Shown: one piece after another, positions 12,737 through 34,070 of the stretch
How the letters are laid out: every line of letters starts with the position of its first letter
Numbering within the stretch: the first letter of the stretch is position 1
Assembly: GCA_016188985.1 (NCBI GenBank)
Contig: JACPGM010000100.1
Span: 1-36,455 of the forward strand
Source: Lentisphaerota bacterium
GTDB taxonomy: Bacteria; Verrucomicrobiota; Kiritimatiellia; JAAZAB01
Length of the DNA: 36,455 nt
Direction: 5' to 3'
The notes under the pieces: model-generated
The model's database searches: none
Told to the model about the DNA's origin: nothing
Seen by the model: only the letters and a program-made list of their open reading frames with translations
Position numbers and translations under genes: made by a program

Positions 12737-12933
12737 GTAACTGCTCAGGTCACCAAGAAATGAAACTACGAAATACGCGAAAGGCGCGAAAATGGGAATG
12801 GAAATTACACTCAAGTTTCGCGTATTTTGTGCGTTTCGTAGTTCCCGCCAGAGGCGGGTCTGCCTAAGGCATGATCCACCTGAGGCGGATCCGCCAAGGC
12901 GGAAATTGTTTTCTCAGATAGCTGAATAGTTAC
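12737..12933. mobile_element. MITE copy 1 (TIR GTAACTGCTCAG, 8-bp TSD AACCGAAC)
   Basis: A 197-base non-coding element. Its left end is GTAACTGCTCAG (12737-12748) and its right end CTGAATAGTTAC (12922-12933), inverted with 10 of 12 matches. It is flanked by exact 8-base direct repeats AACCGAAC at 12729-12736 and 12934-12941, the mark of transposition. Inside are GC-rich palindromes (CCGCCAGAGGCGG, CCGCCAAGGCGG and around). The same interior occurs inverted at 16115-16367. It has no transposase, so an enzyme elsewhere must have moved it. Confidence 0.9.
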
Positions 12934-26001: not shown

Positions 26002-27764
26002 TGCGGGACATACTGCCGAGCCGGGATTATCGCGGCGCCTGGCTGGTGCTGGCAATTTTCTGCGCCTTTGGTGTCTTTGACCATTCCTTATGGTCCAGCA
26101 ACGACACTCGCGAAGGCGCCATGATCCGCGAGATGGTGCGCGAGGGCGTCTGGGTTACCCCCGTTTTCAACGGCCGGCCTTATCTGGAAAAGCCGCCGCT
26201 TTTGCACTGGACCGCCGTGGCGCTCTGCAAGCTGTTCGGCCGGGTGAACGAAGGCCTGGTGCGCCTGCCGGCCGCCCTTTACGGTTTCGGCGCCCTTTTG
26301 ATCATTGGCCGCTGGGCGCGCGCCTTGGGCCGCGAGCGCGCCGGCCTGGTGGCCGCTTTCCTCTGCGCCACTTCCGCGCTCTACTTCGAATATTCCCGGA
26401 TTGTGCTCACCGATGCGGCGCTCACTTTCATGGTCGTGCTCTCGCTCTACCTTTTCTGGCGGGCTTACACGGCCGGCTCAACCAACCAGAAACGCTGGAT
26501 TCCCTTTCTGGCGGCGGCGGCCCTCGCGTTTTACGCCAAGGGCCTCATCGGGCCGGGCCTGATATGGGTAGCGGTTGGCGCTTTCCTGGCCTACCGGCGC
26601 GAATGGAAATTAATTGTTGCCCTCGGCGCGGTCTTTAGCGTGCTCTTTGTGCTGATACTCGCGCCGTGGGTCGCCGCCTTGTGGCGTTCCGGCGGGCCTG
26701 GCTTTCTCCACAGCGTCTTCTGGGAAAATCAGTTCGGCCGCTTCCTGGCTTTCAACGATCCCAACCTGCCGCTGGACCCTTATTATGTCCACAAAGAACC
26801 GGTTTTGTTCTATCTCATCAGCCTGCCGGTGCGGCTGCTGCCCTGGACCTTGCTGGTAATCCCGGCGCTCATCTATTTCTTCCGCAAAAAAAGTCCGGTC
26901 GAGGGTCTGGCGGCAACGTTCATCCGCTGCGCGCTCCTTGGCATGCTGGCTCTGCTGCACGTCTCTTCCGCCAAGGCGGCCTGCTATACCCTGCCGATTT
27001 TTCCGGTCTTATTCCTGATGACCGGCATCTGGCTGGAAGATACCGCCATCCTCTGGCAATCCGCGCTCGATCGGCGCCTGATCGGTTTGACTTTTGGCCT
27101 GGTTGGATTTGTAGTGCTGGCCGTGCCTTTGCTCTATTTGCTGATATTTGCGAATCCCCTTGTTTTTATACACTTGAAAGGACCCAGTGTGGCATCTGCA
27201 AGTTTCATCTTGGAGCCGATTGCTCTTGCGACCGGCATTTTCGCTTGGAGGCGGCTTGAGCGCATATTTCGTTCCGGCCGGCGGAACGAGACCATTCTCA
27301 CCAAGCCCATGGTTCTGGCGGTCCTTGGACTGGTGAATGCCGCGGCCTTTCTGCCGTACGTAGATTTTGATCGCTCTTACAAGCCTTTAGCCGCACTGGT
27401 CCGTGAGGAGCTCAACGCCGGCGCGCGCATGGCATTGGCCGGCGAACGCGAGCGCGATCTGGGCGCCCTGATGTTTTACTTAGATTCGCGCCTGAAGGTT
27501 GTCGCGCTGACCAATGCCACGGAATGGCAAGCCCATCTCTATGAGCAGCCCGGCCGCGCCGGTATTGTTGTGGCCAAAAGTGATTTACCTCAAGCCGAGC
27601 ACCTGTTGCTGGGCCAGCCCTTCAAAACAATTCAGCCGACAAACTGCGGAACCAAGAGCCGCGCGTTCCGGCTGATAATGAACGCAGCCGATACCACTTT
27701 GCCGCTTAAAGCGCCTGCTTCCCAGAACACCAGCGGGATTAGGCCCAAAGAAGGAACCCCTTAG
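26001..27764 (+). CDS. GT39/ArnT-like membrane glycosyltransferase
   Basis: A 587-residue multi-spanning membrane protein of the ArnT/PMT (glycosyltransferase family 39/83) type. The first periplasmic loop after TM1 has SSNDTREGAMIREMVREGVWVTPVFNGRPYLEKPPLLHW. Its D-x-R-E segment holds the catalytic acid of the family, and the YLEKPPLLHW stretch is diagnostic. EYSRIVLTDAALTFMVVLSLYLFW follows, and about ten hydrophobic spans come before a short C-terminal globular domain. Such enzymes move a sugar from a polyprenyl-phosphate carrier to lipid A, protein or another acceptor outside the membrane. The start ATG at 26001 overlaps the protease stop. Coupling to a secreted protease hints at modification of secreted protein, but that is inference. 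Confidence 0.9.
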   Translation: MRDILPSRDYRGAWLVLAIFCAFGVFDHSLWSSNDTREGAMIREMVREGVWVTPVFNGRPYLEKPPLLHWTAVALCKLFGRVNEGLVRLPAALYGFGALLIIGRWARALGRERAGLVAAFLCATSALYFEYSRIVLTDAALTFMVVLSLYLFWRAYTAGSTNQKRWIPFLAAAALAFYAKGLIGPGLIWVAVGAFLAYRREWKLIVALGAVFSVLFVLILAPWVAALWRSGGPGFLHSVFWENQFGRFLAFNDPNLPLDPYYVHKEPVLFYLISLPVRLLPWTLLVIPALIYFFRKKSPVEGLAATFIRCALLGMLALLHVSSAKAACYTLPIFPVLFLMTGIWLEDTAILWQSALDRRLIGLTFGLVGFVVLAVPLLYLLIFANPLVFIHLKGPSVASASFILEPIALATGIFAWRRLERIFRSGRRNETILTKPMVLAVLGLVNAAAFLPYVDFDRSYKPLAALVREELNAGARMALAGERERDLGALMFYLDSRLKVVALTNATEWQAHLYEQPGRAGIVVAKSDLPQAEHLLLGQPFKTIQPTNCGTKSRAFRLIMNAADTTLPLKAPASQNTSGIRPKEGTP

Positions 27765-27780
27765 TCATCGGGGGTAAAAT

Positions 27781-27829
27781 GGCGCGACACGAGGTCGCGC
27801 CCTACGTAGGGCCTCAGCTTGCTGAGGCC
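27781..27829. repeat. Head-to-head pair of GTAG-footed palindromes (BIME-like)
   Basis: Palindrome GGCGCGAC / GTCGCGCC (27781-27801) is followed directly by CTAC (27802-27805), then GTAG (27806-27809), then palindrome GGCCTCAGCTTGCTGAGGCC (27810-27829). The GTAG/CTAC feet abut the stems exactly and meet tail to tail. It lies in the gap after the glycosyltransferase and may also stop transcription. Confidence 0.85.
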
Positions 27830-27903
27830 ATTGGGATCGCCGACCACCCAATAACTGATGGGTTTCCTAAAGAAATCCAACTACCCGAACGGCGGAAGGA
27901 TAA

Positions 27904-28572
27904 ATGAATAATAACACCCTCAACCAAACCCATGCTCCGCCGCATCGGCCGGGTAAGCTGCGCTGCCTGATCAAAGCCCTGTTGGTAATCCTCGCATTAA
28001 TTGCCGGAGCCGGGGCGCTCTGGGAACTTGCCCTCAAAGACCGCTTGATTGCCAGGCGCTGGGGAGTGGTGGAGAGCGGCCTCATTTATCGCAGCGGGCG
28101 GCTGCCCAGCAGTCGCATTGCCGCGGTGCTGGCAAATCAGCGTATTGCCGTCCTCATTGATCTCACGGAAAATCTGCCCGCCAATCAGCTCCAACTCCAG
28201 GAGCGGGTAGCGGCGGCAAATCTGGGGATTGCGTATTATAATTTTCCGCTGCGCGGGGACGGGACCGGCGATATCGCTCACTACGCCCAAGCCATTCAAG
28301 TCCTGCACCGCGCGCGGCGGGCCGGCCAACCGGTGCTGATTCATTGCGCCGCCGGCGCCCAGCGCACGGGCGGAGTTGTGGCCGCCTACCGGGTTCTGGT
28401 GGAACGCCGCCCACACGCCGAGGCGCGCGCCGAGCTCCAGCGCTACGGCTGGCAACCGGGTAAAGACCAGGTGCTGCTCGATTATCTGAACGCCAACATG
28501 GCCGAACTGGCCGCGCGGTTGCAAACCTTGCAGGTCATTGAAACTGTCCCCAATCCCCTGCCGAGGTTGTAA
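27904..28572 (+). CDS. Membrane-anchored dual-specificity/tyrosine phosphatase-like protein
   Basis: A 222-residue protein. A cytoplasmic or basic N-terminus (to Lys24) is followed by one membrane span (ALLVILALIAGAGALWELAL). Next come the DSP-like strand GLIYRSGRLPSSRIAAVLANQRIAVLIDL and the P-loop HCAAGAQRTGG with nucleophile Cys148 and Arg154, the CX5R signature. The topology puts the catalytic domain on the far side of the membrane if the N-terminus stays inside. The general acid may be Asp119 or Asp123 in RGDGTGD. Such proteins resemble the beta-propeller-less phosphatases found with envelope enzymes. GGAAGGA precedes the ATG by 4 bases. Substrate (phosphotyrosine, phosphoinositol, polyprenyl phosphate) is open. 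Confidence 0.87.
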   Translation: MNNNTLNQTHAPPHRPGKLRCLIKALLVILALIAGAGALWELALKDRLIARRWGVVESGLIYRSGRLPSSRIAAVLANQRIAVLIDLTENLPANQLQLQERVAAANLGIAYYNFPLRGDGTGDIAHYAQAIQVLHRARRAGQPVLIHCAAGAQRTGGVVAAYRVLVERRPHAEARAELQRYGWQPGKDQVLLDYLNANMAELAARLQTLQVIETVPNPLPRL

Positions 28573-28655
28573 CTTGTCCCGCGCCGTGCAAGGCTTGCGC
28601 TGTTATTTAGCGATACGGAAGAACGGCGCAACATGGCCGGTCCATTCCACCATGC

Positions 28656-29144
28656 ATGGAAGAGACGAAAGAACCGATGTGTATTGAGAAGATGGAAGGC
28701 AATCAACCAAGAAGGAAGGTTTTGCCGCATGAACGCCCGGCTTGGGTTCGTGAAGATGCGGTCTTCTTTGTCACTGTTTGTTGCGAACCGCGCGGGCAGA
28801 ATCAGTTGTGCCGTGAGACGGTTGCTGGCAAATTGTTCGAGACGGTGGAGTTTCGGCAGGATAAGGGTGAATGGTATGTGCATTTATTGATCCTGATGCC
28901 TGACCTTATGCACGGCTTGATCTCGTTCCCATTGGATCAAAGCATGCGCCAAGTGATATCGGAATGGAAAGAATCTGTGGCGCGCCGAGCGGGTGTACGG
29001 TGGCAGAGGGGTTTTTTCGATCATCGTTTAAGAAATGACGAAATTTATGTGGAGAAGGCCCATTACATCCGGATGAATCCGGTTCGAAAGGGATTGGTCA
29101 AAAATTATGATAATTGGCCATATGTTTGGCCCAAGAAGACATAG
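28656..29144 (+). CDS. REP-associated tyrosine transposase (RAYT, IS200-like)
   Basis: A 162-residue Y1-type transposase. Typical stretches are RPAWVREDAVFFVTVCCEPRGQNQL, WYVHLLILMPDLMHGLISFP, the WK segment, GVRWQRGFFDHRLRNDE and EKAHYIRMNPVRKGLVKNYDNWPYVWP. The last carries the catalytic Tyr region. RAYTs are single-copy, lack IS ends, and cut and move REP palindromes by a GTAG foot. The metal-binding HUH motif is altered: MPDLMH instead of the usual MPDHLH, so the first His is Leu84 (codon CTT at 28905; one base from CAT). The start is uncertain among ATGs at 28656, 28677 and 28692. GTAG-footed palindromes follow from 29163. Confidence 0.88.
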   Translation: MEETKEPMCIEKMEGNQPRRKVLPHERPAWVREDAVFFVTVCCEPRGQNQLCRETVAGKLFETVEFRQDKGEWYVHLLILMPDLMHGLISFPLDQSMRQVISEWKESVARRAGVRWQRGFFDHRLRNDEIYVEKAHYIRMNPVRKGLVKNYDNWPYVWPKKT

Positions 29145-29162
29145 CCGTATCATAGAAAAGGC

Positions 29163-29188
29163 GGCGGGACAGGGCTGTCCCGCCCTAC
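29163..29188. repeat. GTAG-footed palindrome (REP-like), 3' of RAYT
   Basis: A perfect 10-base stem, GGCGGGACAG / CTGTCCCGCC with a 2-base loop (29163-29184), is followed at once by CTAC (29185-29188). It starts 18 bases after the RAYT stop and could also end transcription from both convergent genes. Confidence 0.9.
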
Positions 29189-29222
29189 CGCAAAAAAACA
29201 CGAAGGCAGCAGATGACAAAAG

Positions 29223-29247
29223 GTAGGGCCGCACAGCTTGTGCGGCC
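29223..29247. repeat. GTAG-footed palindrome (REP-like), opposite orientation
   Basis: GTAG (29223-29226) directly precedes a perfect 9-base stem GGCCGCACA / TGTGCGGCC with a 3-base loop (29227-29247). With the palindrome at 29163 it makes an inverted pair separated by 34 bases, between the RAYT gene and the convergent giant gene. Confidence 0.9.
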
Positions 29248-33790: not shown

Positions 33791-33818
33791 GGATGCTTTC
33801 CGGCCGAGTCGATCCTAA

Positions 33819-33885
33819 GTAGGGCGCGACCACGCCTCTGGCGTGGTGAACCTCGCGCCAGCCACGCGAAACGCGTGGTCGCGCC
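33819..33885. repeat. GTAG-footed three-stem palindrome upstream of the giant gene
   Basis: GTAG (33819-33822) abuts the outer stem GGCGCGACCACGC / GCGTGGTCGCGCC (33823-33835 with 33873-33885). Within it lie CCACGCCTCTGGCGTGG (33830-33846) and CCACGCGAAACGCGTGG (33862-33878), which compete with the outer stem. It sits about 30 bases before the start of the giant PQQ gene, within its likely leader. Confidence 0.85.
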
Positions 33886-33996
33886 ATTTCTCACCATTAC
33901 GTAAAAAACTACAAATTACCTTGCGCACCATGCCGATGCAAGTTGGAACTTGCGCGCTGGTGCTGCAGGGGTGTAATTCAAGAAAGGTGGGGCAGG

Positions 33997-34027: not shown

Positions 34028-34070
34028 CCGTGTAGTATGTATCTGAGATAGATACATATAAATAGGAGGA
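34025..34070 (+). promoter_or_regulatory. IS promoter region with 9-bp palindrome and Shine-Dalgarno
   Basis: TTGCCG (34025) and TATAAAT (34057-34063) are candidate promoter boxes, though their spacing is long. Between them is a perfect palindrome TATGTATCT / AGATACATA (34036-34058, 5-base loop), a possible operator or leader hairpin. GGAGGA (34065-34070) stands 6 bases before the ATG at 34077. Confidence 0.5.

Follow-up and report, generated by a model that had tools for sequence, protein, structure and literature searches.

A RAYT gene followed by an inverted pair of GTAG-footed hairpins, with a MITE carrying a second pair nearby, in a Lentisphaerota bacterium

The RAYT gene and the GTAG-footed palindromes in its neighbourhood very probably represented a REP/BIME system (REPtron) of the ordinary kind, next to which a transposon had inserted. 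They were found in a window of 36,455 nucleotides, by which we mean the whole stretch of DNA that was analysed. A preliminary description of this DNA had reported four palindromes with CTAC or GTAG at the stem base, arranged as inverted pairs around the RAYT gene, and all four were confirmed with perfect stems at the positions given there. The word "around" held for the two downstream palindromes only, which flanked the gene. The upstream two lay beyond a dual-specificity phosphatase gene (27904-28572), which separated this hairpin pair and its MITE from the RAYT, and therefore the upstream pair was not a RAYT flank. The features of the locus were as follows, with F1, F2 and F3 denoting hairpin families of this genome.

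27745-27752, no strand: left target-site duplication CCAAAGAA, matching the right copy at 7 of 8 bases
27753-27866, no strand: F3-family MITE of 114 bp with degenerate terminal inverted repeats (TIRs), carrying the upstream hairpin pair (from alignment and a blind TIR scan)
27781-27805, minus strand: F3 hairpin 1, GTAG-GGCGCGAC-loop-GTCGCGCC, foot at 27802-27805; its junction was found 17 times genome-wide
27806-27829, plus strand: F3 hairpin 2, GTAG-GGCCTCAG-cttg-CTGAGGCC, foot at 27806-27809
27867-27874, no strand: right target-site duplication CTAAAGAA (from alignment and the TIR scan)
28656-29144, plus strand: RAYT gene (REP-associated tyrosine transposase, 162 aa; NCBIfam NF047646)
29163-29188, minus strand: F2 REP, GTAG-GGCGGGACA-gccc-TGTCCCGCC, foot at 29185-29188, member of a 21-copy family
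29223-29247, plus strand: F2 REP, partner hairpin, GTAG-GGCCGCACA-gct-TGTGCGGCC, foot at 29223-29226

The product of the RAYT gene scored 84.7 bits against the NCBIfam RAYT model NF047646 (cut-off 80) and was missed by the Pfam Y1_Tnp model at E 0.001. The catalytic Tyr was present in a YIRMNP motif, and both this Tyr and a Trp were invariant among 68 aligned sequences. The HUH motif was incomplete. Namely, it read MPDLMH, with LMH in place of HxH, and the first His, present in 66 of 68 aligned homologues, was seen directly to be replaced by Leu. The protein was a RAYT/TnpAREP member by descent and, judged from these residues, was probably catalytically dead, and the lost His could also be an assembly error. 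Named homologues of this RAYT came mostly from Verrucomicrobia. A second copy of the same RAYT clade was encoded on contig C71 of the genome. It was 52% identical, had an intact HUH motif (MPDHLH) and carried F1 hairpins on its flanks. The window RAYT was itself a REP-flanked gene, with two F2 hairpins on its 3' side and no clear REP on its 5' side.

The anatomy of the four hairpins was simple and could be read directly. Upstream, the hairpin at 27781-27801 had a perfect stem of 8 bp, a loop of 5 and CTAC directly 3' of it, and the hairpin at 27810-27829 had a perfect 8 bp stem, a loop of 4 and GTAG directly 5'. Downstream, perfect 9 bp stems were found at 29163-29184 (loop 4, CTAC 3') and 29227-29247 (loop 3, GTAG 5'). 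Both pairs were inverted with the feet pointing inward; the upstream hairpins abutted, joined only by CTACGTAG, and the downstream feet were 34 bases apart. GG at the stem base was common to all four. Among the 21 hairpins of the window with stems of at least 8 bp, the foot was present on five, that is, on these four and on an AT-rich one at 34036. The latter (34036-34058, TATGTATCT-gagat-AGATACATA, GTAG at its 5' base) stood alone and matched no family found, and its foot was probably due to chance.

The scan against shuffled sequence that the preliminary description had proposed came out in favour of a repeat system. The genome (G000) comprised 3.09 Mb in 173 contigs and was 86% complete, and foot statistics were taken from a 0.79 Mb sample. 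In this sample, GTAG preceded perfect stems of at least 8 bp more often than any other of the 256 tetranucleotides, with 81 occurrences against a mean of 4.6 per foot and 0-1 in Markov-shuffled sequence. A count made without regard to the foot placed GTAG on 72 hairpins where 1.05 were expected from its frequency (about 70-fold). All 22 adjacent pairs of GTAG hairpins were inverted and none was tandem, each combined two different stems, and random placement yielded only 1.4 adjacent pairs. The GC-rich hairpins were located just 3' of genes, and published REPs are often found 3' of genes and may have a role at the RNA level (PMC3733652), which would suit transcription terminators or RNA-stabilising stems with an incidental foot. 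We regard this reading as highly improbable: the stems were not followed by a T-run, strict inverted pairing of distinct stems is unexpected of terminators, and the roughly 70-fold excess of the foot argues against it as well. GTAG thus stood at GC-rich hairpins that were multicopy above chance and arranged as inverted pairs, as in a GTAG REP/BIME system. Together with the NCBIfam assignment and the RAYT association seen in relatives, these data bore out the original identification of a RAYT with REP/BIME repeats.

The GTAG hairpins of the genome were sorted into recurrent families with conserved stems, and the idea of a single REP family defined by the foot only was rejected on this ground. 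F2 consisted of GTAG-GGC(G/T)GGACA with a four-base loop joined to GTAG-GGC(C/T)GCACA with a three-base loop. The family was present in 21 copies, against 0 for a reversed-pattern control, and 18 of the 21 made up nine inverted heterodimers, of which five had their feet pointing outward and four inward. None of 57 relatives had more than three copies. F2 was probably the REP family of the window RAYT and its putative substrate, a link drawn from adjacency and from amplification in this genome only. F1 had the form GTAG-GGNNNNYTC-ncc-GAR and so on, with 154 genome copies. The four stems of the window had looked free because members of two families and their heterodimer mates, which are expected to differ, were being compared. 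The claim of freely varying stems was therefore replaced by two recurrent conserved families (21 and 17 copies), and it survived in the sense that the central stem was exchangeable if paired. Since published REP families also have exchangeable paired central stems (PMC3733652), the contrast drawn with classical REP families was not upheld.

Further GTAG hairpin families were seen at L007, L025, L045, L048, L049 and other loci, among them CCGCGCCC-gtga-GGGCGTGG, GCCGCCAT-agt-ATGGCGGC and AGCCGAC-tttat-GTCGGCT. The last of these hairpins also adjoined other RAYTs in relatives (L084, L085).

Relatives of the RAYT in other genomes (39-57% identity) provided insights into what was constrained in the repeats. 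Many were flanked by hairpins that combined GTAG-GG and a stem of 9 bp with NC[C/T] as a loop of three bases. We collected 25 distinct hairpins beside related RAYTs. Of these, 23 had a GTAG foot and two a GTGG foot, the first two base pairs of the stem never varied, the second loop base was C in 24, and stem positions 3-9 were variable with compensation, pairing in these counts being 100% by selection. In an F1 set chosen by foot and loop only, 37 of 38 genome sites paired perfectly while having seven different central tetranucleotides. Within the RAYT clade, some members had GTGG or a mismatched hairpin. Other bases (AGCC, combined with the loop tttat; CTGCC) were found in RAYT clades at greater distance. 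The REP base type clustered on the RAYT tree, requiring 9 changes compared with 18.3 when shuffled. Recognition was probably more than foot and shape, because the distant RAYT clades have other stem bases. This comparative pattern agreed with in vitro data on perfect-stem REPs, for which loop bases are critical, one or more being essential, and stem perfection matters more than stem sequence (PMC8266576).

It had been proposed that the enzyme reads mainly the foot and the hairpin shape, which did not agree with a basal GG and a loop that were nearly as constant as the foot in the RAYT clade. In its strongest form, one RAYT would recognise any GTAG-footed hairpin whatever its stem, and all four palindromes would be substrates. 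The constancy of the foot across families, the exchangeable central stems of F1 when paired and the GG stem base of all four hairpins could be explained in this way. Nevertheless, we consider it unlikely, given that the stems sorted into recurrent families, that basal bases and loop were kept within the RAYT clade and differed in other clades, that MITE ends, complete or decayed, bounded the F3 copies, and that published assays on perfect-stem REPs show at least one loop base to be essential (PMC8266576).

We searched 58 genomes with a covariance model of the hairpin, scoring at most 134 candidates in each, so that the per-genome counts were lower bounds. At least five hits were found in 8 of 13 genomes with a close RAYT and in 7 of 45 without one (p = 0.002), and the association held when the own genome was excluded (p = 0.005). 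The predicted excess over relatives without RAYT was thus observed. However, some relatives (such as G009, G011, G021 and G024) were rich in these hairpins although they had no close RAYT, and as they encoded other Y1 transposases, the contrast between presence and absence of RAYT was not clean. Sampled stretches of single genomes gave five feet against 0.19 expected in G044, which had a close RAYT, the foot on two unrelated singletons in G033, which had a RAYT fragment only, and no hairpin with the foot in 0.25 Mb of G054, in which no RAYT was found. The arrangement of foot plus stem was far above chance and was associated with RAYTs.

The upstream pair belonged to a different kind of element. 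Its layout was GGCGCGAC-loop-GTCGCGCC-CTACGTAG-GGCCTCAG-cttg-CTGAGGCC, and copies were counted by a 17-base junction pattern, which occurred 17 times in the genome (14 exact) and in 2-3 copies in each of three congeners, and was not found in the other 16 relatives searched. The window MITE (27753-27866) aligned end to end with a 114-bp element (L056:1971-2084) that folded as a single palindrome. Full-length F3 copies had terminal inverted repeats of type GTAAYSSGTCAGTTAYNGGGG, with element ends GTAAYSSGTCAGTTA. These repeats were clear in L056, L031 and L022 and degenerate in the window copy, which still qualified as a MITE. Target-site duplications were likewise observed directly: an exact one of 8 bp flanked the F3 copy at L022, the window copy matched at 7 of 8 bases, and exact 8-bp duplications were also present at L027, L032, L036 and L042 around MITEs carrying F1, while L056 and L031 had none. 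A scan for MITE ends placed 13 of 80 GTAG hairpins within TIR-bounded elements, compared with 16 of 4000 random positions.

The combination of GTAA ends with duplications of 8 bp presumably resembles that of IS66. As the assembly (86% complete) contained no IS66 transposase (PF03050), IS66 was rejected as the partner of the MITE, and the element was not classed as an IS66-type MITE. Nor could the other Y1 transposases of the genome be tied to F3: neither the contig that encoded the C159 copy nor the locus of the C109 copy (1.7 kb) contained a GTAG hairpin. The search for a transposase of the F3 MITE found none.

An alternative history of the upstream pair deserves serious attention, although we put it at somewhat less than an even chance. 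The pair may have been a true RAYT-spread REP doublet that was later captured by a MITE, both mechanisms having raised its copy number. Such an origin would account for the REP anatomy of the F3 hairpins, for an identical GTAG-GGCCTCAG-cttg hairpin about 350 bases from another RAYT in G051 (L094) and for the presence of F1 REPs both beside RAYTs and within MITEs. On the other hand, the same MITE-like sequence adjoined the pair in all F3 copies read, each of which retained AAATGGC...GCCATT beside the hairpins. Moreover, no F3 pair was located next to a RAYT in this genome except the window copy, which was separated from it by a gene.

Several other palindromic elements were noticed. The window contained a further TIR-bounded element of 197 bp (12737-12933) with ends GTAACTGCTCAG / GTAACTATTCAG and a target duplication of exactly matching 8 bp, AACCGAAC; a relative of 254 bp (L057:6352-6605) had GAATTAAG on either side. 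The segment at 33814-33895 matched an insert that long F3 copies carry within their hairpin (94% to L031) and was probably, by this similarity, another dispersed palindromic repeat. The long F3 copies (L170-L193) had further palindromes within hairpin loops (e.g., CCTGCCCGCAATGCTACGCATAGCGTTGTAGGCGGG), as if these loops were preferred insertion sites. In G051 (L094 2220-2340), an F3-like pair lay about 340 bases from a RAYT and was enclosed by a long inverted repeat of another kind, ACATGCTCGTT...AACGAGCATGT.

In our preferred reading, that of an ordinary REPtron with a transposon beside it, an inverted heterodimer of F2, the REP family that probably belongs to this RAYT, lies 3' of the gene. 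By analogy with published relatives, an intact HUH/Y1 enzyme would bind single-stranded REPs in their folded form and cleave them. The GTAG foot would guide a nearby cut, the basal G-C pairs and the loop would be read, and the central stem would mainly have to pair. The repeats would spread in inverted doublets whose two hairpins differ slightly. The window RAYT would most likely be cleavage-dead, with the intact-motif paralogue remaining on C71 beside F1, and other RAYTs may be missing from the list since the assembly was 86% complete. The F3 MITE was most likely inserted by a cut-and-paste transposase, presumably of the DDE type, rather than by the window RAYT.

The closest known system was that of the GTAG REPtrons with group 3 REPs, such as those of S. 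maltophilia (8-bp perfect stem, GCT loop; PMC8266576). The shared features were the GTAG foot, a perfect GC-rich stem of 8-9 bp, many copies, a RAYT nearby and a short loop starting with G, here in F1 and F2. The stem and loop sequences, the fixed basal GG and a window RAYT without the first HUH His were different here (PMC8266576). In the verrucomicrobium Opitutus terrae, GTAG REPs are abundant and dimer partners are 1-2 bp apart (PMC3733652). Its GTAG-17 and GTAG-19 dimers shared the phylum, the GTAG REPs and the inverted dimers with our case, a likeness by description and not by consensus sequence (PMC3733652). REPs in general form inverted homo- and heterodimers and sub-families with compensatory stem changes (PMC3733652). 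Similar to F3 and the MITE-borne F1, QMITE2 of Coxiella burnetii is bounded by TIRs and direct repeats and has a GTAG REP inside (PMC5896051), but the elements described here were 114-185 bp long with 8-bp duplications, other TIRs and usually an inverted REP pair.

Thus, GTAG REPs, inverted dimers and compensatory sub-families (PMC3733652) as well as a MITE with a GTAG REP (PMC5896051) were already known, and our additions are modest: new REP families, doublets from two families carried by a single type of MITE, and a RAYT lacking the first HUH His whose neighbouring REP family was amplified in the genome. Several REP families were added from a lineage related to Verrucomicrobia, for which the literature found describes only O. 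terrae. The 25 distinct hairpins beside related RAYTs gave comparative evidence that foot, basal GG and loop are constrained and that the central stem is free but paired, and REP pairs were documented within MITEs with 8-bp target duplications. We would further suggest, tentatively, that REP doublets of more than one family may be standing MITE cargo in this genus, spread by two unrelated mechanisms (HUH on single strands and DDE on double strands) and persisting despite the HUH loss of the adjacent RAYT.
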